In this document: positions 18,660 through 48,001 of the stretch, one piece after another
How the letters are laid out: every line of letters begins with the position of its first letter
How positions within the stretch are numbered: position 1 is the first letter of the stretch
DNA from: a virus
DNA: 48,001 nucleotides
Virus record (IMG/VR): IMGVR_UViG_3300020469_003175
Span: 1-48,001 of that record
Reading direction: 5' to 3' (one strand)
Program-made: the position numbers and the translations under genes
Notes under the pieces: generated by a model
The model's input: the letters and a program-made list of their open reading frames with translations, nothing else
What the model was told of the DNA's origin: nothing
Databases searched by the model: none

Positions 18660-18688
18660 TTGACATTTTGGTTAAAAGATAGTATAAC
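18660..18688 (+). promoter_or_regulatory. Sigma70-type promoter for tmRNA
   Basis: TTGACA, 17 bases, TATAAC. Strong host-type promoter, consistent with early expression of the stable RNA. Confidence 0.8.
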
Positions 18689-18692
18689 TATA

Positions 18693-19094
18693 TTATGTAA
18701 CGTTGAAGCAATTTAAACGCTATTCAGGACCCCGGGGCAGTACCGGGCGACTCCACCATAAACACATTTACTGAGTGTGCTTATGATGGGGTCGAAATAG
18801 GATCGACTGGTAGTTAATAGAGTTAGTGGAGTTATCCGGATCTAAGCACGGTTATCGCGAAGAAAACTTATAATTGCAAATGACAATTATGCGCCAGAAA
18901 TGGCATTAGCGGCCTAGTTTAGGCACGTAGGGGTTGGCAACTTACCTGGCAACAGAAAAGTTGCGTACTATATAGAGCAATATAAATAGTGTATATACAA
19001 AAGCACCTTTAACTATAACAAAAAGAACACAGTATAGAACGGACTCTATCCACGCCGTAGGCGACATTACATTTAAAACAAGTATATTTAAAAG
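18693..19094 (+). ncRNA. ssrA: Circularly permuted two-piece tmRNA
   Basis: Rescues stalled ribosomes by trans-translation. The gene order is permuted: the acceptor piece comes first, with T-arm CCCGG-GGCAGTA-CCGGG and CGACTCC-A-CCA ending at 18758; a hairpin spacer (18759-18787) follows; then the coding piece starts GGGGTCG (18788-18794). GGGGTCG pairs with CGACTCC (7 bp, one G-U). The tag frame 18876-18917 encodes ANDNYAPEMALAA and a TAG stop; the LAA end is the ClpX degron. Permutation is characteristic of alphaproteobacteria. The outer limits are set by promoter and terminator; exact processed ends are not visible. Confidence 0.92.
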
Positions 19095-27847: not shown

Positions 27848-28240
27848 ATGCCAAATAAAATAAACTTGATCACACCACCCGATAACTTATACAACAACAA
27901 CTTTTCTTTAAATCTAATCAATACTACAGATGCTGAAAAAGAAAAGATTAGTAACTACTTGGGCAAACAAAAAGATGATAGAGAAATAAACTTGTATGCA
28001 TATACAAATGAAAGTAATCCTACTTGGTTACTTAACAGAGTAAATGGTGAAATTAAAACCTATATTAATCTTGACAATACTAGTGATATTAGTGTACAAT
28101 ATACTAGTTACATATTAAGTAAGAGTAACGTTTACTACTACACAGAGGATAAAAATATGAAAGAAGTTTACAGTCTGATTAGTACAAACAATGTAACTGG
28201 CATCAATAATTTTTTAGATAAGGTATACAATGAGCAATAA
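27848..28240 (+). CDS. Conserved phage protein (130 aa)
   Basis: A 130-residue Asn/Tyr-rich soluble protein (MPNKINLITPPDNLYNNNFS), one base after the previous stop and overlapping clpX by 11 bases. I recognise the opening (INLITPPD-LYN) from marine T4-like phages, where it has no function. It sits between the membrane coiled-coil gene and clpX and is probably part of one transcript. Confidence 0.75.
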   Translation: MPNKINLITPPDNLYNNNFSLNLINTTDAEKEKISNYLGKQKDDREINLYAYTNESNPTWLLNRVNGEIKTYINLDNTSDISVQYTSYILSKSNVYYYTEDKNMKEVYSLISTNNVTGINNFLDKVYNEQ

Positions 28241-29483
28241 ACAACAAGATCACCACTGTCACTTTTGTGGCAAAGATAAAAAAGAAGTAACCAAATTAAT
28301 TGTCGGTGACGACAGTGCAATTTGTAATGAATGTATTGATTTATGTGTAACTATTTTAACTAAAGAAAAAGTCAAAAGTATTCATACTAAGAAAGAAGCA
28401 TTTGATACAACTAAACTTAATCCAAAAATGATTAAAGAGTATCTTGATCAACATGTAATTGGACAGGAACAAACAAAGTTAGCAATGAGTGTTGCAGTAG
28501 CACAACACTACAAAAAATTAAACAATCCAAGTGATGATATTAAATTAGATAAAACTAACGTAATGGTTATGGGTCCAACAGGATCAGGTAAAACATTAAT
28601 TGCACAAACTATTGCAGACTTCCTTAATGTACCGTTTGCTATTTGTGATGCTACAACACTTACAGAAGCAGGATACGTTGGTGATGATGTAGAAAGTATT
28701 ATTACTAGGCTAGTAACAGAAGCAGATGGAAACATTGAACTAGCACAACGTGGTATTGTGTTTGTAGATGAAATTGATAAAATTACAAAAAAATCACAAA
28801 ACGTTTCAGTTACAAGAGATGTTAGTGGAGAAGGTGTACAACAAGGTCTTTTAAAGATTATTGAAGGAACTAAAGTTAGAGTTAATGCAGGACAAAACAA
28901 ACGTAAGCATCCAGGTGCTGAAATGGTAGACATTGATACAACAGATATATTATTTGTAGTTGGTGGTGCATTTGTTGGATTGGATAAACTACTATCAGAA
29001 CGTACAAATCAAAACGGAATGGGTTTTGGTGCAGACATACAAGATCCAAATGCAGAAGCAGACTTATCACAAATACTTCCAGAAGACTTAATCAAGTACG
29101 GTTTCATTCCAGAGTTTATTGGTCGTTTTGGCTTAATTACATACGTAAATCAGTTGACACAAGAGCAACTATGTAGTATTATTAAAGAGCCTAAGAACAG
29201 TTTAGTAAAACAATATAGTTATTTGTTTGGACTAGACAATATAAACTTAGAGTTCACTGATGGAGCAATTAAAGCGATTGCTTCCAAAGCACAAGAACTT
29301 AAGACAGGTGCTCGTGGACTTAAAAAGATTATAGAAGAGGCATTGTTACAGTATCAATATGACGCTGAGGATTTAGCGGCAGAAGGTTTGGAGACTATAA
29401 CGATACAAGAAGAAACGATAACTAATAGCGACACACCGTTACTGGTATATAGAAACAAAAGGACAAATGGCAAAAAACATTAA
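28230..29483 (+). CDS. clpX: ClpX ATP-dependent unfoldase
   Basis: A full-length 417-residue ClpX. It has an N-terminal zinc-binding domain (Cys10, Cys13, Cys32, Cys35), Walker A GPTGSGKT (115-122), the GYVG pore loop (148-151), Walker B VFVDEID (177-183) and an RKH-type loop KRKHP (224-228) that recognises ssrA tags. The ClpP-docking loop reads MGF (264-266) in place of IGF, a mild change that should still dock. No clpP is visible, so it would work with host ClpP. With the phage tmRNA tag ending LAA, it forms a complete tag-and-recognise pair. Confidence 0.95.
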   Translation: MSNKQQDHHCHFCGKDKKEVTKLIVGDDSAICNECIDLCVTILTKEKVKSIHTKKEAFDTTKLNPKMIKEYLDQHVIGQEQTKLAMSVAVAQHYKKLNNPSDDIKLDKTNVMVMGPTGSGKTLIAQTIADFLNVPFAICDATTLTEAGYVGDDVESIITRLVTEADGNIELAQRGIVFVDEIDKITKKSQNVSVTRDVSGEGVQQGLLKIIEGTKVRVNAGQNKRKHPGAEMVDIDTTDILFVVGGAFVGLDKLLSERTNQNGMGFGADIQDPNAEADLSQILPEDLIKYGFIPEFIGRFGLITYVNQLTQEQLCSIIKEPKNSLVKQYSYLFGLDNINLEFTDGAIKAIASKAQELKTGARGLKKIIEEALLQYQYDAEDLAAEGLETITIQEETITNSDTPLLVYRNKRTNGKKH

Positions 29484-34536: not shown

Positions 34537-34943
34537 GCTACTTTTTCGCCTGCATCTATTCTACGCTGGTGTTCTTCAACTGAACCTGGATATCTCCAAG
34601 CCCAAATACCTACTAATACCATAAAGCCTCCGCTCCATAATACTGCTTTAATGTTACCAGTTGCAAAGAATGTAATTGCTAAGGTAGAAGCCATCATAGC
34701 GGCCATTAAGTATTTTCCTTTTGTAGGAAATACTCTTTTCTTATTCCAGTTAGTTAAAAACTTACCAAACCACGGATGGTTGTATAACCATTTTTCCATT
34801 TTTGGTGAACTCTTTGCAAATGCCCATGCGGCAATTACAAGGAAGATTGAAAAAGGTATTCCAGGTGTTACTACTCCGACATAGGCTAGACCAACACATA
34901 GAAAACCAATTGCTTGATACATATATTTTTTTATTTTATTCAT
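34524..34943 (-). CDS. DUF454 (YbaN-like) inner membrane protein
   Basis: A 139-residue protein with the DUF454 hallmark [20 protein letters not shown] followed by [22 protein letters not shown]. About four membrane spans. The start overlaps the hemA stop (ATGA), so it is translated with hemA. In bacteria, YbaN-like genes have occasionally been found near heme genes, but their biochemical role is unknown. Placement here suggests a tie to the tetrapyrrole module. Confidence 0.85.
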
Positions 34944-36130
34944 ATTATTTTGTGCCTTTCTAACACTGTAAGTAATTTATCCACAAGTTCATCCATCATT
35001 CCTGATGAGTGATTAGGGCCAGGACAAAACCTTAAACGTTCTGTGCCTTTTTCAACAGTAGGATAATTTATTGGTTGCACATATATTCCGTCTTTGTATA
35101 ATAAATCGTCTGATATTTGTTTACACTTTACAGGGTCTTTAATCATAACTGGAACAATATGGCTATTGTTTTCAAGTATCGGAATACCTTTGTCTATAAA
35201 CTTTCGTTTTAGTTCTTCCGACTTTACTTGCAACATCATTCTAAGTTCTTTATGTTCTTTTACATACTTTACTGATGCTAATGCACCTGCACATAAAACA
35301 GGACTCATTGATGTTGTAAATATAAATGCAGGTGCGTAACTTCGTATTGCATCTATAAATGTTTTGTCGGCGGCAATATATCCGCCTTGTACTCCATATG
35401 CTTTGGCTAGAGTACCATTGATTATATCAGGCTGTACATTTCTTTCTTCGCACACGCCTCCACCGTTTGGTCCATATAATCCTACAGCATGTACTTCATC
35501 TATGTAACTTATTGCGTTGTACTTTTTACATAGTTTAACAATATCACCTACTGGTGCTATGTCGCCGTCCATACTGTAAACAGATTCAAACACAACCATT
35601 TTAGGTCCTGTAATCTGTTTTAGTTTTAATTCTAATTCTTTTAAGTCATTGTGTGTCCAAATAACTTTTTTAGCACCACTGTGTCTTATTCCTTGTATTA
35701 ATGAACTATGATTGTTGCTGTCACTAATAAATGTAATGTCTGGAATAATTTTTGCAATAGTTTCTATTGTAGTTTCGTTTGCATTAAAGGCACTAGTGAA
35801 TAATAGTGCTGATTCTTTGTTGTGTAAACGTGCTAGTTCTAGTTCAAGTGCAACATGATAATGAGTTGTACCACTAATATTTCTAGTACCACCACTACCT
35901 GCACCTGCTGTTTCGAGTGCAGTTTTCATTGCATCTAAAACAAATTGATGTTGACCCATACCTAAGTAATCGTTAGAACACCAATTAACAATTTTTGTAA
36001 CAGCATACTTTGAATACCAGATTGCTTTAGGGAAATCCCCACACTCTCTTAGAATATCGTTGAACACACGATACCTGCCCTCTTCTTTAAGGTTTAGTAT
36101 CGCCTGTTCAAATTTATCAATGTGTTGCAT
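34940..36130 (-). CDS. hemA: 5-aminolevulinate synthase (C4 pathway)
   Basis: A full-length 396-residue PLP enzyme that condenses glycine and succinyl-CoA to 5-aminolevulinate, the committed step of heme synthesis in alphaproteobacteria. Landmarks: [11 protein letters not shown] (49-59), [25 protein letters not shown] (211-220) and the PLP lysine in [10 protein letters not shown] (Lys243). Bacteria other than alphaproteobacteria usually use the C5 route, so this gene points to that lineage. It overlaps its neighbours on both sides within a leftward operon. Together with heme oxygenase and the bilin reductase downstream it would drive bilin production. Confidence 0.93.
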
Positions 36131-36590: not shown

Positions 36591-37028
36591 ATGACAAGAC
36601 TAACAACTCTAGACCTACCTAACTTCCAAAGAGCCACAATTGGCTTTGATAGACTGTTTAACGAAATGGAAAGACAGTTCGCAAATAGTCCAAACGGAAA
36701 CGGGTATCCCCCATACAATATAGCACAAATCAACGATGATGAGTATATGATCTCATTAGCAGTTGCAGGCTTTGGTATGGACAACCTTTCAATTACCACA
36801 GATGGTGATCAATTGAAAATCGAAGGAACTGCTCCAAAAGGAGATGAAGATGTCAACTACCTACACAAGGGTATTGGCGGACGCAACTTCCGTAGAGAGT
36901 TTACACTCGCTGACCATGTTAAAGTAGCAGATGCTAATCTTGAACTAGGTATGCTGAATGTGCATTTAGTACGTGAAGTACCAGAAGCACTAAAGCCAAA
37001 GACTATTAAAATTAATAGTCCTAAGTAA
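36591..37028 (+). CDS. Hsp20 / IbpA-like small heat shock protein
   Basis: A 145-residue holdase chaperone with the alpha-crystallin domain at about 35-130 (YMISLAVAGFGMDNLSITTD, KIEGTAPKG, LELGMLNVHLVREVPEALKP). It is the IbpA-like type common in T4-like marine phages. It has both an early and a late promoter plus a structured leader and its own terminator, indicating expression throughout infection. Probably protects aggregating proteins, and could help head assembly. Confidence 0.93.
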   Translation: MTRLTTLDLPNFQRATIGFDRLFNEMERQFANSPNGNGYPPYNIAQINDDEYMISLAVAGFGMDNLSITTDGDQLKIEGTAPKGDEDVNYLHKGIGGRNFRREFTLADHVKVADANLELGMLNVHLVREVPEALKPKTIKINSPK

Positions 37029-37135: not shown

Positions 37136-37441
37136 ATGACAACTCATACAGATACAGTAACAAAAGAAAAACAAATATCTGCTATTAAAGAACCTGGCAT
37201 GTACAAGGTTACATTTTTTAATGACAATGTAACTCCTATGGACTTTGTTGTACAAGTACTAAAGGAAATCTTTAAACATAATATAGATAGAGCAGAAGCA
37301 ATAATGCAACAGATCCATCAAAATGGACAAGGTGTTGCAGGAATCTACACATATGAAATTGCAGAACAAAAAGGTGTAGAAACAAGCGTACTAGCAAGAG
37401 AAAGCGGTTATCCACTTCAGGTCAAAGTAGATCTTGCATAA
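37136..37441 (+). CDS. clpS: ClpS adaptor of ClpAP (N-end rule)
   Basis: A 101-residue ClpS. The N-degron pocket is visible in FFNDNVTPMDFVVQVLKEIF (Asn29, Asp30, Met35) and the helix RAEAIMQQIHQNGQGVAG (His61); the AEQKG and final PLQVKVDL segments also fit. It delivers N-degron substrates to host ClpA. With phage ClpX and tmRNA it extends control over the host Clp protease. Its stop overlaps the next start (TAATG). Confidence 0.92.
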   Translation: MTTHTDTVTKEKQISAIKEPGMYKVTFFNDNVTPMDFVVQVLKEIFKHNIDRAEAIMQQIHQNGQGVAGIYTYEIAEQKGVETSVLARESGYPLQVKVDLA

Positions 37442-38066: not shown

Positions 38067-38606
38067 ATGGCAACACTTAAAGAACTAACCTGGGAATTTC
38101 ATAAATCTGCAGAACGTAGCAACTTTGCACGTAAACTTCTCAAAGGACAACTTACAGAATCACAATACGCAGAGTATCTATACAATCAATTGTTTATATA
38201 CCAAGCACTTGAAGAATGGGCAGGACATGCAGGCATTCTTAAAGGTATTGAAGGTATATGTAGAGCAGAAGCAATTAAAGAAGACTTTAATCAAATAGGT
38301 GGAAACTTTACTATAAAAGGCAGTGCAGTAGACTACAAAGAACATCTGTTTAAACTACACGAATATGATCCAGAACAATTACTTGCTCATATATATGTTA
38401 GACACTTTGGTGATCTACATGGCGGACAGATGATTGCTAAACGTGTACCCGGTGACGGAAACTACTATAAATTTGATGGCAAAGAAAAAGAACTTATTGC
38501 TGAAGTACGTAGTAGACTAGAAGGTAAAGAAGACCTATTCGTTGACGAAGCAATTAAATGCTTTCAATTTGCTACAGAACTATTCAAGGAGTTAAGCAAT
38601 GAGTGA
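38067..38606 (+). CDS. ho1: Heme oxygenase (biliverdin-forming)
   Basis: A 179-residue heme oxygenase. The proximal heme ligand is His12 in FHKSAERSNF; the distal helix is YVRHFGDLHGGQMIAK (110-125), with the flexible GDLxGGQ segment. It opens heme to biliverdin IX-alpha, CO and iron. It overlaps the bilin reductase by eight bases. The same gene pair has been described from uncultured marine phages. Its ATG is five bases from a late box, so the mRNA may be leaderless. Confidence 0.93.
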   Translation: MATLKELTWEFHKSAERSNFARKLLKGQLTESQYAEYLYNQLFIYQALEEWAGHAGILKGIEGICRAEAIKEDFNQIGGNFTIKGSAVDYKEHLFKLHEYDPEQLLAHIYVRHFGDLHGGQMIAKRVPGDGNYYKFDGKEKELIAEVRSRLEGKEDLFVDEAIKCFQFATELFKELSNE

Positions 38607-39306
38607 ACTTTGGAATAAACTTAATGATTGCAAATTCAACATTATTGATATGTTCGACGAGTATGGAACAGAATATGCTGAAGATGGATTAGACTATTTC
38701 AATCAACCTGACAACGGTTGGATTAACCGTGTGTGGCAAAACAATAACATTCGTAGAGCACATATCGATGTCGTAGATGCTACTACTACAAAAGGCCTAT
38801 GGATGATGCACGTTTGTATTTTTCCGCAACTACATAACAATGGTCCTATATACGGATTTGATGTTATTGCAGGTAAAAATAAAATGACAGGTGCATTTCA
38901 TGACTATAGTCCACTAGGTGGACCTAATGGGCAAGGTGCTAATCATAATATGGTAGAATGGTTTGAAGATACTGTAAGTGAATATGTTCCTAGCAAAAAA
39001 CGTGAATTACCAGAATGGGCAACTAACATATTTTCAGGCTCTATGGTTGCGGCAGGTAATGTAAGTGATATGGACGAAGCAGACACTATTATTGACCTAG
39101 CACAGAACAACTTAAAAGTATATCTTGAATCCATTGGTGATCATAATAACACAGGTGATCGCGACACAGTGCTTGAAGGACAAAACTGGTACTGTCACAA
39201 TCAGCAACAAAACCCACATACACCTAAAGTAATGAAGTCATTAGGACTTAACGAAGCAGATGTAGAACGATTTTGCACTGATATGTTATTTCCAAAAAAG
39301 GTATAA
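38599..39306 (+). CDS. pcyX: Ferredoxin-dependent bilin reductase, PcyX-like
   Basis: A 235-residue member of the PcyA/PebS/PcyX family. The core HVCIFPQLHNNGPIYGFDVI (71-90) carries the conserved catalytic Asp (Asp88) and nearby His residues, followed by GAFHDYSPLG. Reduces biliverdin using host ferredoxin. PcyX from non-cyanobacterial marine phage sequences, found beside a heme oxygenase, was shown to make phycoerythrobilin; this gene has the same partner. Subtype assignment rests on context and length, so PcyA-like activity is not excluded. Confidence 0.82.
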   Translation: MSELWNKLNDCKFNIIDMFDEYGTEYAEDGLDYFNQPDNGWINRVWQNNNIRRAHIDVVDATTTKGLWMMHVCIFPQLHNNGPIYGFDVIAGKNKMTGAFHDYSPLGGPNGQGANHNMVEWFEDTVSEYVPSKKRELPEWATNIFSGSMVAAGNVSDMDEADTIIDLAQNNLKVYLESIGDHNNTGDRDTVLEGQNWYCHNQQQNPHTPKVMKSLGLNEADVERFCTDMLFPKKV

Positions 39307-43487: not shown

Positions 43488-44318
43488 ATGACGCAGTTAA
43501 TATCCCCACAAAAATTTACAAACACAATTGGCCTTTTAAGGTCATTTTTTTTGGATAAAGGATTTTTAGAAGTCCACACCCAAAACAGACTCAGCATACT
43601 TGCCGCATGTGAAGATCCATTCAATGTAGCAACATATCAATACGCAGGCAAGACTTGGCCACTACCGCAAACAGGCCAGATGTGGCTCGAACATGAATTA
43701 TTAAGTAGCCCCGATAGTAAGGGGTTTTTTTGTGTCTCCACTTCCTATAGACAGGAACCAAATGCAATCCCAGGTAGACATGATATAATATTTCCAATGT
43801 TTGAATTTGAAATGCCAGGTGACATAGATGATCTTAAAAAGATGGAGTATGAACTATGTGAATACTTAGAATTCAAAAAGCCTACTGAAAAAACTTATGC
43901 TGAATGGCAAAAGCATTACGAACTTGCAGAAGATTACGAAATGACTGCTGATGAAGAAACTAAAATGCACAAGGAGTTTGGTACAACAATGATTACAGAC
44001 TTTCCAGAACTAACAAGTCCATTTTGGAATATGAGTAGAAATGCTGATGGCAAAACTGCTAAAAAGATCGATGTTATATTAGGTGGCATGGAAACTATTG
44101 GATCAGCAGAACGTTCGTGTGATGTTGATATGATGCGTGATACATTCCACAGTATTACAGACGGAGCATACTCAAAACTATTGTTTGAACTGTTTGGCAA
44201 AGAACGTGTAGAAGCAGAACTTGAAAAGTTTTTAGAGTTTGACTTCTTCCAAAGAGTGGGCGGAGGCATAGGTGTAACACGTATGATCCCTGCACTAGAA
44301 AATATCAATAAGATATAA
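43488..44318 (+). CDS. Miniature AsnRS-like class II synthetase core (276 aa)
   Basis: Contains only the class IIb catalytic core of the AspRS/AsnRS type: a motif 1-like helix and strand (LLRSFFLDKGFLEVHT, 16-31), motif 2 with Arg88 (VSTSYRQEPNAIPGRHD), METIGSAERS (201-210) and motif 3 GGGIGVTRMIPAL (Arg265). There is no N-terminal anticodon-binding domain. Archaeal relatives with this truncation make asparagine from aspartate (AS-AR); others aminoacylate small or unusual RNAs. It is not AsnA by motif. A tRNA with Asn anticodon starts eight bases downstream, suggesting a functional pair. AAAGGA upstream. Confidence 0.75.
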   Translation: MTQLISPQKFTNTIGLLRSFFLDKGFLEVHTQNRLSILAACEDPFNVATYQYAGKTWPLPQTGQMWLEHELLSSPDSKGFFCVSTSYRQEPNAIPGRHDIIFPMFEFEMPGDIDDLKKMEYELCEYLEFKKPTEKTYAEWQKHYELAEDYEMTADEETKMHKEFGTTMITDFPELTSPFWNMSRNADGKTAKKIDVILGGMETIGSAERSCDVDMMRDTFHSITDGAYSKLLFELFGKERVEAELEKFLEFDFFQRVGGGIGVTRMIPALENINKI

Positions 44319-44325
44319 GTTATAA

Positions 44326-44410
44326 TCTAGGGTGGTGAAATAGGTAAACACGCACGATTGTTTCTCGTGTGACGAAAGTCTTGGAGGTTCGAATCCTTCC
44401 CCTAGAGCCA
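44326..44410 (+). tRNA. Class II (long variable arm) tRNA with anticodon GTT
   Basis: Acceptor TCTAGGG/CCCTAGA, D-arm GTG...CAC, anticodon arm CACGA-TTGTTTC-TCGTG, variable arm TGACGAAAGTCTT with a GAC-GAAA-GTC hairpin, T-arm GGAGG-TTCGAAT-CCTTC, discriminator G, encoded CCA. GTT is the Asn anticodon, but tRNA-Asn normally lacks a long variable arm, which marks Ser, Leu and some Tyr tRNAs. G73 fits Asn or Ser. Positions 37-38 (T, C) are atypical. Charging identity is uncertain. Confidence 0.8.
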
Positions 44411-44492: not shown

Positions 44493-45557
44493 ATGCCACC
44501 ACGTAATCATAAGAATTGGTTAGCACAACCAAACGTAGAATCAATTAGCAGTTCAGCATATAACGATCCAGAAGTATTTGCACAAGAACAAGAACGTATC
44601 TTTAGTAAAGTTTGGGTACCTATGTGCCACATCTCGGAGATGTATAACAAACTAGACTACCGTACAACACAGATAGCAGGTGTTAATGTTATTGCATACA
44701 ATACAGGCAATGGTGTTCGAGCATATCGTAACTATGGCAGTTGGGCACCTAGTGGTACGCTAGGAGCACCTATTGTAACTGTTGAACCACAACTACATTG
44801 TGAAGTAAAGCACGGAGGTATGGTATGGGTAACACTTGATCCTAATCCCTTACAGAGTGTAGAACAATGGACAGCAGGAGCATTTGATTGTATTAGTGAT
44901 GCTATTGACACAGAAGAAATGGAAGTGTTCCATTACCACAAAGCAGTTATAGATACAAACTACAAACTGTGGCATGATACTAACAGTGAATTCTATCATG
45001 ACTTCATGCACTACTTTAATAGAGTAAGTGGATTTAACGATGAATACTTTGCACGTAAAAATATACCTTTTGACAACGGACATGTAAATGTAAGTTCATT
45101 CACTGTCAACTACGAAGAGTATGAAGGCTTTGAAGATAGAGGCCAACTATCCTTTCCTAATCTACCACCCAACCAGTGGTACATGGTCGACCTATTCCCA
45201 GGCTTTAATTTTAACTTGCGTGGTAGTGCATATAGAAGTGACAGTGTTACTCCAATAGGTTGTAATAAAGTTCTTATAGAATTTAGAGGTTATGGACTAC
45301 GCAAAGACACAGCAGAAGAAAGACGCACACGCATCAACCATCACAACAGCATATGGGGACCGTTTGGGCGTAACCTACATGAAGACCTAATTGGAGTAGC
45401 AGGACAAGGAACAACAATGCGTGAAGGCACAGAAGCACGTAACATATTGCATGGCAGACATGAGAATGGAACCATACACGATGAAGTTGGTATGCGCCAT
45501 TACTATAGTGAATGGGGCAAGTATTTGGATATTGATCCTTACCAATCCTTCTCCTAA
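44493..45557 (+). CDS. Ring-hydroxylating-oxygenase-like protein lacking the Rieske site
   Basis: A 354-residue homologue of Rieske oxygenase alpha subunits. The N-terminal opening (QERIFSKVWVPMCHISEM) and EVKHGGMVWVTLDPNP are standard, but where C-x-H-R ... C-x-x-H should occur the sequence reads RAYRNYGSWAPSGTLGAP (77-93), as if the cluster-binding loops were cleanly deleted. The catalytic domain keeps a non-heme iron-like site: Glu166, His169 and His173 (EFYHDFMH) and Asp298 (LHEDLI). Without the [2Fe-2S] cluster electrons must come from elsewhere, or the chemistry has changed. Confidence 0.75.
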   Translation: MPPRNHKNWLAQPNVESISSSAYNDPEVFAQEQERIFSKVWVPMCHISEMYNKLDYRTTQIAGVNVIAYNTGNGVRAYRNYGSWAPSGTLGAPIVTVEPQLHCEVKHGGMVWVTLDPNPLQSVEQWTAGAFDCISDAIDTEEMEVFHYHKAVIDTNYKLWHDTNSEFYHDFMHYFNRVSGFNDEYFARKNIPFDNGHVNVSSFTVNYEEYEGFEDRGQLSFPNLPPNQWYMVDLFPGFNFNLRGSAYRSDSVTPIGCNKVLIEFRGYGLRKDTAEERRTRINHHNSIWGPFGRNLHEDLIGVAGQGTTMREGTEARNILHGRHENGTIHDEVGMRHYYSEWGKYLDIDPYQSFS

Positions 45558-45581: not shown

Positions 45582-45597
45582 CGAGTGAAACCACTCG
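45582..45597 (+). promoter_or_regulatory. Hairpin enclosing the speD start codon
   Basis: CGAGTG-AAAC-CACTCG places the GTG start (45585) inside a perfect 6-bp stem; no Shine-Dalgarno is evident. Suggests controlled or weak translation initiation. Confidence 0.45.
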
Positions 45598-46034
45598 TGC
45601 ATAAGCATGTGATAATAAGAGCGGAAGTACTTAATCCGCCCACAAACGAAAACACAGCAAGTAATCAAATACAAACTCTGATTGACCGCATAGGCATGAA
45701 AGTGCTTATGGGTCCTTTTGCCAAGTATGTAGAGATGAAAGGTAACAGAGGATTAACAGTTGCCGCAATAATAGAAACTAGTCATATTGTACTACACAGT
45801 TGGGATGAAACAGATCCTGCATTAATACAATTAGATGTTTATACTTGTGGAGCATTTGATCCACGTACAGTGTTTGAGTGGGTTGAAGAGTACTACAACC
45901 CCGTTAAAATGGAATACAAATATCTTGATCGAGAACATGCTCTAACACCAGCACTATTACCTGAAAAAGATAAGTTTAAGTTTTCTACACAAGAATTAGT
46001 AGATGCTACAAATGCTATTCTGCAATCTTCTTAA
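45585..46034 (+). CDS. speD: S-adenosylmethionine decarboxylase proenzyme (SpeD)
   Basis: A 149-residue prokaryotic AdoMetDC, which supplies aminopropyl groups for spermidine. The self-cleavage region reads IETSHIVLHSWDE; Ser66 should become the pyruvoyl group. The residue before it is Thr, not the usual Glu, which is shifted back one place. His71 and Cys88 (VYTCGAFDP) match the processing and catalytic His and Cys. GTG start, within a hairpin. SpeD is known from marine T4-like phages. It converges with the Fis-like gene, overlapping by 20 bases. Confidence 0.87.
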   Translation: MKPLVHKHVIIRAEVLNPPTNENTASNQIQTLIDRIGMKVLMGPFAKYVEMKGNRGLTVAAIIETSHIVLHSWDETDPALIQLDVYTCGAFDPRTVFEWVEEYYNPVKMEYKYLDREHALTPALLPEKDKFKFSTQELVDATNAILQSS

Positions 46035-46373: not shown

Positions 46374-46391
46374 TCAATGGGAGAGCAGAAA

Positions 46392-46841
46392 ATGAAAAAA
46401 ATTATCACGACTACATTGTTCGTCTGTCTTATTGGTACGGCTGGAGCGAGCGAACAAGTATTCACTTTTAAAAATCCATCTTTTAGTGGATCAGGATACA
46501 GTAATCATGTACTGTCAATTGAACAGTTACAGTTTACTCGAAAGAAAGAAGCAGAAGAAAAAGCGGCGGCCGATGCGGCTAAAGCCAAACGTGAAGCGGA
46601 TAGCACTACCTTAGCAAAGTTTTTAAACAACATAGAATCTCGAATCTATGCTCAACTGTCTAAACAGTTAGTTGACAATATGTTTACTGATGACGGAGAC
46701 AGTTCTGGAACTGCAACTATTGAGGGTGCTACGATTTACTGGGTAAAGGATACAACGTCTGATACTATTACACTTCTAATTACAGAAGCGGACGGTAGCA
46801 CTACAGAGATTGTTGTTCCATTGAGCGGATTTGGATTCTAA
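46392..46841 (+). CDS. csgF: Curli assembly protein CsgF
   Basis: A 149-residue secreted protein. The start at 46392, seven bases after GGGAGAG, gives signal peptide MKKIITTTLFVCLIGTAGAS; an in-frame ATG at 46377 is less likely. The mature N-terminus EQVFTFKNPSFSGSGYSNHV is the CsgF signature that inserts into the CsgG pore. The Lys/Glu/Ala-rich segment (about 50-75) is a helical linker. CsgF couples subunit export to nucleation. First gene of a csgF-csgG-curlin operon; csgE is not seen. Confidence 0.9.
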   Translation: MKKIITTTLFVCLIGTAGASEQVFTFKNPSFSGSGYSNHVLSIEQLQFTRKKEAEEKAAADAAKAKREADSTTLAKFLNNIESRIYAQLSKQLVDNMFTDDGDSSGTATIEGATIYWVKDTTSDTITLLITEADGSTTEIVVPLSGFGF

Positions 46842-46844
46842 AAT

Positions 46845-47672
46845 ATGAGAGGTATAAGATTTTTAATAATTGGGTTTTTGGCAATGACGTTTTTAAACGG
46901 GTGTGCTACACAAACAGCAAAAGTAAACTGGAGCAGTCCAACCGAGGCACGCTCTCCCATACAGGATACTTTAGTTGCAATGCCAAAACTTGATGGTCCT
47001 AAAATTACTATAGCGGTTTATAGTTTTCAGGACAAAACTGGACAACGAAAACCAAGTGACTCATTTAGTCAGTTGTCTAGTGCGGTAACGCAAGGGTCTG
47101 AAGTTTGGGTTATTAACGCACTTCAGAAGGTAGGAGGAGGTTCTTGGTTTACCGTTGTAGAACGTGTAGGCTTAGATAATTTGGTTAAAGAAAGGCAATT
47201 GATAAGATCAACAAGGGAAGTATTTGAAGGCAAAGAGGCAGTTAAGTTAAAACCTATGTTATTTGCAGGGTTGTTATTAGAAGGTGGCGTAGTAGGCTAT
47301 GATTCAAATACAACTAGTGGCGGAGTTGGAGCAAGATATTTTGGTATCGGCGCTAACACAAGTTATCGAACTGATCAAGTAACAGTGGCAATGCGAATTG
47401 TAAGTGTTCAAACAGGTGAAGTATTACTTACTGTAGCCTGTGAGAAAACAATAGCAAGTCACAAGTCTGGAGCAGATGTATTTAGGTTTTTAGATCTTGG
47501 AACGAAAGCGTTAGAATTAGAAACGGGTTCCGCGGTCAATGAACCAACCAACTACGCAGTTAGAGCCGCAATAGAGGCATGTGTAGGGGAAATAGTAAAG
47601 AAAGGCGAAGAAGGCGAACTTTGGAAGTATAAAGGAAAAGAAATAACTTCAGAAGGACACCATCTTCATTAA
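46845..47672 (+). CDS. csgG: Curli secretion channel lipoprotein CsgG
   Basis: A 275-residue outer-membrane lipoprotein (lipobox FLNGC, Cys20), close to E. coli CsgG (277). Landmarks: KITIAVYSFQDKTGQRKPSD, FTVVERVGLDNLVKERQLIR, LLLEGGVVGYDSNTTSGGVG and ARYFGIGANTSYRTDQVTVA, the last covering the barrel hairpins and constriction region. It forms the nonameric pore through which curlin crosses the outer membrane. Three bases after csgF. CsgG/CsgF-like genes have been noted in pelagimyophages. Confidence 0.93.
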   Translation: MRGIRFLIIGFLAMTFLNGCATQTAKVNWSSPTEARSPIQDTLVAMPKLDGPKITIAVYSFQDKTGQRKPSDSFSQLSSAVTQGSEVWVINALQKVGGGSWFTVVERVGLDNLVKERQLIRSTREVFEGKEAVKLKPMLFAGLLLEGGVVGYDSNTTSGGVGARYFGIGANTSYRTDQVTVAMRIVSVQTGEVLLTVACEKTIASHKSGADVFRFLDLGTKALELETGSAVNEPTNYAVRAAIEACVGEIVKKGEEGELWKYKGKEITSEGHHLH

Positions 47673-47689
47673 AAGAACAAGGAGCGAGA

Positions 47690-48001
47690 ATGCAAAATAA
47701 AGTAAAATATATAATGATGGGTTTTGTATTATTCTTTTTCTCAGTTGGGTCTGGATTTGCGAATGACATATACATTCAACAGTCAGGTAACAACTTAGAT
47801 TTAGATATATCACAAGACGGACAAAACAACGTAATCGGTACAGCACAAACTGGTGTGACTCTTGCTGGTAACGCTATGACGTTTAACATTGACCAAATTG
47901 GTGGTGCTAACGTTGTATCAGCAATAGTTAAAGGTGTAACTTACACAGGTAATATTGATCTTACTGGTAACAGTAATGATGTAGCATTACTCTGTGATAG
48001 T
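47690..48001 (+). CDS. Curlin-like amyloid subunit, 3' end cut by window
   Basis: The frame is open to the window end: 104 residues. A signal peptide (MGFVLFFFSVGSGFAN) leads to repeats of the curlin type: IQQSGNNLDLDISQDGQNNV, AQTG, IDQIGGANVV, LTGNSNDV. These Q-x-G-x-x-N-like strands identify a CsgA/CsgB-family subunit. AAGGAGCG precedes the ATG at 47690. It follows csgG by 17 bases, completing channel, adaptor and substrate in one operon. Whether it is the major subunit or the nucleator cannot be told. Confidence 0.8.
   Translation, partial: MQNKVKYIMMGFVLFFFSVGSGFANDIYIQQSGNNLDLDISQDGQNNVIGTAQTGVTLAGNAMTFNIDQIGGANVVSAIVKGVTYTGNIDLTGNSNDVALLCDS

Follow-up and report, generated by a model that had tools for sequence, protein, structure and literature searches.

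A phage methanesulfonate-monooxygenase-type alpha subunit lacking its Rieske cluster, and a reciprocal iron-less partner in SAR116 bacteria

An examination of 48,001 nucleotides of viral DNA (positions 1 to 48,001 of IMG/VR record IMGVR_UViG_3300020469_003175, the whole of which is called the window here) shows an open reading frame at 44493-45557 related to MsmA, the alpha subunit of methanesulfonate monooxygenase, a Rieske oxygenase (RO). The features of this gene and its product are as follows.

44493 to 45557, + strand: Rieske-less MsmA-type alpha subunit ("catalytic half"), 354 aa, with ATG at 44493 and stop at 45555-45557
44493 to 44732, + strand: kept N-terminal framework of the Rieske domain, residues 1-80 (phmmer of PDB; alignment with full-length MsmA)
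44733 to 44801, + strand: hypervariable loop replacing the [2Fe-2S]-binding segment, residues 81-103 (conservation, pN/pS)
44802 to 45527, + strand: catalytic domain, residues 104-345 (PF00848 across residues 141-345)
44988 to 45011, + strand: iron-site motif E166-F-Y-H169-D-F-M-H173, identical in 224/224 viral copies
45384 to 45386, + strand: third iron ligand D298, within NLHED (NLHEDL in 224/224 viral copies)

The sole Pfam domain above the cut-off in ORF 44493-45557 is PF00848 (E=4e-6). The Rieske domain PF00355 was not found by Pfam, and a motif scan of all 354 aa returned zero CxH, CxxH or CxxC, the four cysteines of the protein lying at residues 45, 103, 133 and 257. Residues 10-80 align with RO alpha subunits such as CntA and naphthalene dioxygenase (phmmer of PDB) and the framework over residues 1-80 is kept, in agreement with the original prediction of a Rieske oxygenase homologue without its cluster. 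That prediction also had the framework joining directly where the cluster should be, which needs amending: about 80 MsmA residues, from CPHRG to about AGLRRL, are swapped for a short loop at residues ~81-103, the site of which holds CPHRG-X26-CMFH in aligned full-length MsmA. The iron site is complete, with the predicted ligands H169, H173 and D298 all present and E166 in addition (EFYHDFMH and NLHEDL), and D298 is invariant across distant ROs (alignment A2). The catalytic domain is ~74% identical to that of full-length MsmA, and the protein as a whole is 71% identical to the "MsmA" of isolate phage HMO-2011, which is annotated as a methanesulfonate monooxygenase alpha subunit. The CXH-X26-CXXH motif that defines this monooxygenase (PMC4433239) is absent, and an MsmA-lineage catalytic domain is present. 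At the level of sequence, ORF 44493-45557 is shown to encode a Rieske-oxygenase alpha subunit of the MsmA lineage that has lost the cluster and kept the mononuclear iron site.

Structure prediction against known alpha subunits is consistent with this assignment. The AF2 model of the window protein (pLDDT 87.8) was built on a 63-sequence alignment that included full-length relatives and so biased the model towards the RO fold; it matches 7c8z_A with Z 33.6 over 316 residues, a predicted RO alpha fold obtained with full-length ROs in the alignment. The phage-only alignment A1 gave a poor AF2 model (pLDDT 47), and a search of the viral fold library returned two relatives, both weak. The closest solved relatives by profile or by fold, namely carnitine monooxygenase CntA, salicylate 5-hydroxylase NagG and terephthalate dioxygenase, differ from the window protein in being complete RO alpha subunits with their own cluster, and are 14-19% identical to it.

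Cellular relatives fall into two sets, 63 that are full-length or nearly so (~415 aa) and 17 without the cluster. MsmA from methanesulfonate degraders is defined by a long 26-residue spacer (PMC4433239), reflected in the C(P/S/A)HR-X26-type CxxH of 61 of the 63 full-length-type relatives, the two exceptions being L160, truncated before the motif, and L159, which has no motif match. An msmB-like gene adjoins every full-length gene (63/63) and an msmC-like gene 58 of the 63; the full-length form occurs widely in Alpha- and Gammaproteobacteria. A comparison of the full-length enzyme (MSAMO, MsmABCD) with the phage protein shows that the former carries both metal sites on one chain while the latter has no Rieske segment, and that the MSAMO genes are flanked by msmB/msmC-like genes whereas the phage gene has no msmB/C/D nearby; the two share the EFYHD-(F/Y)-(M/L/V)-H iron motif as well as the similar catalytic domain. 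The HxxxH spacing, originally regarded as an oddity of the phage protein, turns out to be common to the family: EFYHD-(F/Y)-(M/L/V)-H occurs in 63/63 cellular full-length-type MsmA relatives, compared with ExYHxxxxH in other Rieske oxygenases of the same genomes. Since all 63 have it, the spacing is, as read from these sequences, an ancestral MsmA-family trait and not peculiar to the phage protein. Two full-length loci, L109 and L134, were considered as tandem-duplication intermediates and rejected, as their extra "redox" matches are stand-alone reductases with no second alpha subunit.

At least 598 relatives of the window gene are present in IMG/VR, and 224 viral copies were analysed for motifs. 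The paired Rieske motif is found in none of the 224, as the original prediction had proposed to check, and EFYHDFMH and NLHEDL are found in all of them; because EFYHDFMH served among the six search seeds, the search itself slightly favours its constancy, and NLHED was not among the seeds. Among the viral copies pN/pS is 0.10 in the catalytic domain vs 0.68 for residues 77-103, with synonymous sites largely saturated, and conservation is 0.38 over residues 81-100. The phage Rieske-less gene is under strong purifying selection, and the loop where the cluster was lost differs in length and sequence from phage to phage. The gene occurs in at least two dissimilar phage groups. One comprises HMO-2011-type phages, in which it adjoins lysis and structural genes; the other, which includes the window, has T4-like genes and a tRNA-synthetase-like neighbor. 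Compared with phage records by Megablast, the window core had a single match, at 1%. Viral contigs were searched for MsmA-type Rieske domains and none was found, and no redox partner (described below), msmB, msmC, msmD or other msm operon gene is present in 223 viral loci (flanks up to 10 kb).

Several other genes of the window can be assigned. The tRNA-synthetase-like neighbor is a 276-aa class II (Asp/Asn/Lys-type) protein at 43488-44318 (+) that adjoins a tRNA-Asn gene at 44326-44410 (+), and a gene of this kind adjoins the Rieske-less gene in 30 viral loci. Directly 3' of the Rieske-less gene is an S-adenosylmethionine decarboxylase-like gene (45585-46034, +), and curli secretion genes occupy 46377-48001 (+), encoding CsgF-like, CsgG-like and curlin-repeat proteins, the last cut at the record end. 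A PLP aminotransferase-family protein resembling 5-aminolevulinate synthase is encoded at 34940-36130 (-), a heme oxygenase (PF01126) at 38067-38606 (+), and a ferredoxin-dependent bilin reductase (PF05996, PcyA/PcyX-like) at 38599-39306 (+). A tetrapyrrole cassette is known in phages (PMC11480375), from which the window differs in having the first gene on the opposite strand, apart from the other two. A ClpX-like AAA protein with a zinc finger (28230-29483, +), a ClpS adaptor (37136-37441, +) and a neighboring Hsp20 gene (36591-37028) form a possible phage proteolysis set. The window also carries a phage-encoded permuted tmRNA at 18665-19008 (+) with the tag ANDNYAPEMALAA. It is of alphaproteobacterial type, with weak matches across Alphaproteobacteria, none of them close in the genomes searched and SAR116 not close, which suggests an alphaproteobacterial host but not SAR116 in particular.

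The cellular copies without the cluster show a setting quite distinct from that of the phage genes. Fifteen of the 17 form one clade (99/97), mostly on SAR116 chromosomes. Two "bacterial" copies (L083 and L098) were set aside, as they group with phage branches in the tree and probably come from phage contigs that were binned with bacteria. In SAR116 the Rieske-less gene is the end of an operon and stands beside a second MsmA-like protein, the order being transport genes on the opposite strand, the gene for an 800-aa fusion, one that is msmB-like, those for a Rieske ferredoxin and for a Pfam-less protein, and the Rieske-less gene. Beyond the latter lie LysR and TauE, followed by PanB-, Fhs- and FolD-like genes, names that we assign presumptively from their own sequences. 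The operon itself places msmB-like and msmC-like genes beside the catalytic copy and encodes Ring_hydroxyl_B and Rieske-ferredoxin-type proteins; nearby are C1 genes of Fhs/FolD-like type, transport genes of NMT1 type and the gene for the sulfite exporter TauE. The Pfam-less protein, of ~275 aa, is conserved (L338:16555-17382 and homologues) and usually encoded immediately 5' of the Rieske-less gene in SAR116; near 13 full-length MsmA loci there are distant homologues, and it is a candidate assembly or helper subunit.

The 800-aa fusion combines an N-terminal MsmA-like part with a Rieske motif and a C-terminal half that is an FAD/NADH ferredoxin reductase, and its domain content mirrors that of the Rieske-less protein. 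Pfam finds PF00355 (3e-17), Pyr_redox_2 and Reductase_C in this redox partner, with PF00848 under the cut-off, and PF00848 alone in the SAR116 catalytic copy. CPHR-X26-CMFH is kept in 13/13 redox partners and E166, H169, H173 and D298 in 0/13; the iron motif is deleted or rewritten (e.g., KFHQDFMK in L338), and none of the 13 has the D298 segment. The reverse pattern, with iron ligands kept and cluster gone, holds in all catalytic copies examined (12 from SAR116 and 224 viral), and every aligned full-length MsmA and SAR116 catalytic copy has E166, H169 and H173. The redox partners are 95% identical to one another across the Rieske segment, falling to 43% across the catalytic remnant, and the SAR116 catalytic copies reach 94% in the catalytic domain and 79% in the N-terminal part. 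Within the SAR116 order the catalytic copy is present in 12 of 136 genomes and the fusion in 11 of the 12, a contig end cutting it in the twelfth; the other 124 have neither catalytic copy nor partner, and one of them has full-length MsmA. Two genomes have the catalytic and fusion genes ~12 kb apart, outside a single operon, and one SAR116 genome has the redox fusion as two ORFs of 330 and 465 aa (L335:3189-5572), reflecting either gene fission or a frameshift. Genome G092 (2,753,527 bases) has just two MsmA homologues, the pair itself, and an inserted molybdopterin oxidoreductase/ferredoxin/membrane gene set. We take G092 to be IMCC1322, the host of HMO-2011. Its two MsmA-type genes fit the published description of that strain (PMC4433239).

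The reciprocal gene structure, the co-occurrence, the selection and the predicted fold are all seen in the data, and the explanation we consider probable is that the product of the phage gene is an alpha subunit with a catalytic role only, part of a split RO of the methanesulfonate-monooxygenase type, and relies on a redox half made by the host. As read from these genes, this suggests a phage part that plugs into a host-made machine. A precedent for the electron path is NdmA/NdmB, in which the distance from cluster to iron is 12 A between subunits vs ~44 A within one chain (PMC10380055). Because electrons cross between RO subunits, a cluster-only and an iron-only alpha subunit can complement each other if assembled side by side. 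From here we infer the assembly, the electron path, the substrate and the joining of the phage subunit to a host complex. The catalytic and redox alpha-like proteins would form a mixed ring, and electrons would pass from NADH to FAD, possibly via ferredoxin, to the Rieske cluster of the redox subunit and then across the subunit interface to the iron of the catalytic subunit, where activated O2 would cleave a sulfonate to sulfite and formaldehyde. The substrate is most likely methanesulfonate, by analogy with the family to which the protein belongs. During infection the phage would add extra or replacement catalytic subunits, the redox half coming from the host. As none of the 223 viral loci has the partner, the electrons for the phage subunit most likely have to come from the host. 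A suitable host partner is present for HMO-2011 if G092 is IMCC1322; the host of the window phage may lack the redox partner.

Other explanations for the missing cluster have to be weighed against this one. The phage subunit could instead enter mixed trimers with ordinary full-length host MsmA and use its Rieske cluster, serving any methanesulfonate-degrading host. Such a partner is widespread in Alpha- and Gammaproteobacteria and present in one SAR116 genome, its catalytic domain is ~74% identical, and cross-subunit electron transfer is general to ROs; however, the only genomes seen with an operonic Rieske-less gene pair it with the iron-less protein and not with a full-length MsmA, and we regard this arrangement as unlikely. 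Direct reduction by a small ferredoxin, whether host MsmC-like or otherwise phage- or host-encoded, with no other alpha-type subunit, is rather improbable. It could draw on the Rieske-type ferredoxin encoded in the SAR116 operon, and the window encodes an Nfu-like protein as well as the ferredoxin-dependent bilin reductase, indicating that the host has ferredoxin chemistry. This route would not need the partner at all, yet the partner nearly always co-occurs with the catalytic copy and its Rieske segment is its best-conserved part.

The phage protein might also be no working oxygenase in infection, acting as a non-redox binder of iron or substrate or as a decoy that poisons the host complex, and the absence of its own cluster and of the rest of the pathway from every phage locus (223 viral loci) would fit such a role. 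A decoy has no need of an intact active site, and all iron ligands and nearly the whole catalytic domain are kept, with pN/pS at ~0.1, in at least two dissimilar phage groups, making this explanation very doubtful. Of the two implications drawn in the original prediction, a non-redox role is disfavored by the near-invariance of the iron ligands and the whole catalytic domain, while a new electron supply finds support in the form of supply in trans by an iron-less, reductase-fused MsmA paralogue in SAR116. Taken alone, the missing motif might reflect gene decay or a mistake in sequencing or assembly, and the chance of this is vanishingly small: the deletion is common to 224 viral copies and 17 copies from bacterial assemblies, an agreement that excludes chance or assembly error, and the reading frames are intact. 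Full-length relatives exist, yet the deletion is fixed in a clade with 100/100 support, so that it is not a local event.

The Rieske-less clade is large and sister to full-length MsmA (support 100/100). When the tree is rooted on full-length MsmA, the SAR116 copies form one clade (99/96) inside phage diversity, in a mixed clade with support of 94/92; the phages form one clade in 0/200 bootstrap trees, but a topology that unites them is still allowed by the AU test (p 0.123). The SAR116 catalytic subunit may be of viral origin. We tentatively envisage a scenario, on balance doubtful, in which the cluster was lost in phages and a copy entered the msm operon of the SAR116 ancestor, where the resident MsmA, its own iron site now dispensable, decayed to a redox-only form. 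Loss of the cluster in phages would have been bearable if a host cluster was borrowed across the subunit interface.

The absence of the motif was noticed earlier. Henriques and De Marco, 2015 (PMC4433239) reported that HMO-2011 MsmA, sequences from marine metagenomes and one of the two MsmA copies of IMCC1322 lack CXH-Xn-CXXH, and excluded such sequences from their MsmA tree without explanation. The HMO-2011 protein and the "second MsmA" of Ca. Puniceispirillum marinum IMCC1322 belong to the same Rieske-less family as the window protein; the loss of the iron site in the motif-bearing IMCC1322 copy and the complementarity of the two were not reported there. Phage msmA continues to be named as a methanesulfonate gene in later papers (PMC4928673, PMC10134843), and passages of two SAR116 papers list msmA and do not mention a split (PMC8547437, PMC12262181). 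No description of the reciprocal split was found in the literature searched, which consisted largely of freely accessible papers, making this a weak absence; as far as could be found, the split is new. The sole described case found of a cluster-free catalytic RO subunit is the caffeine N7-demethylase NdmC/NdmD/NdmE, in which the Rieske domain has moved onto the reductase (PMC4408171, PMC10380055). There, NdmD carries an extra Rieske domain on an FMN/[2Fe-2S] reductase, whereas in SAR116 the FAD/NADH (Pyr_redox_2) reductase bears an entire iron-less alpha subunit. The caffeine system also has the GST-like helper NdmE; a scan of proteins from the SAR116 operon gave no GST domain, with the ~275-aa protein Pfam-less. 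To judge from the genes, a split of the NdmC/NdmD type appears in the SAR116 gene pair but not within the phage itself, and the SAR116/phage split belongs to another RO lineage and has one half carried by a phage.

In conclusion, phage "msmA" has for more than ten years been included among the sulfur-cycle auxiliary genes carried by the highly abundant HMO-2011-type phages despite its missing cluster, and a mirror-image host partner would account for that absence. The annotation of these genes should be corrected, as neither half alone is a complete MsmA. If the proposed split is true, the phage provides one half of a heteromeric enzyme and the host the other, and ROs would be divisible into a pair of degenerate alpha subunits, since electrons in these enzymes already pass from one subunit to another. 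If a viral origin is also true, a bacterial enzyme of carbon and sulfur metabolism would depend on a domesticated viral catalytic subunit.
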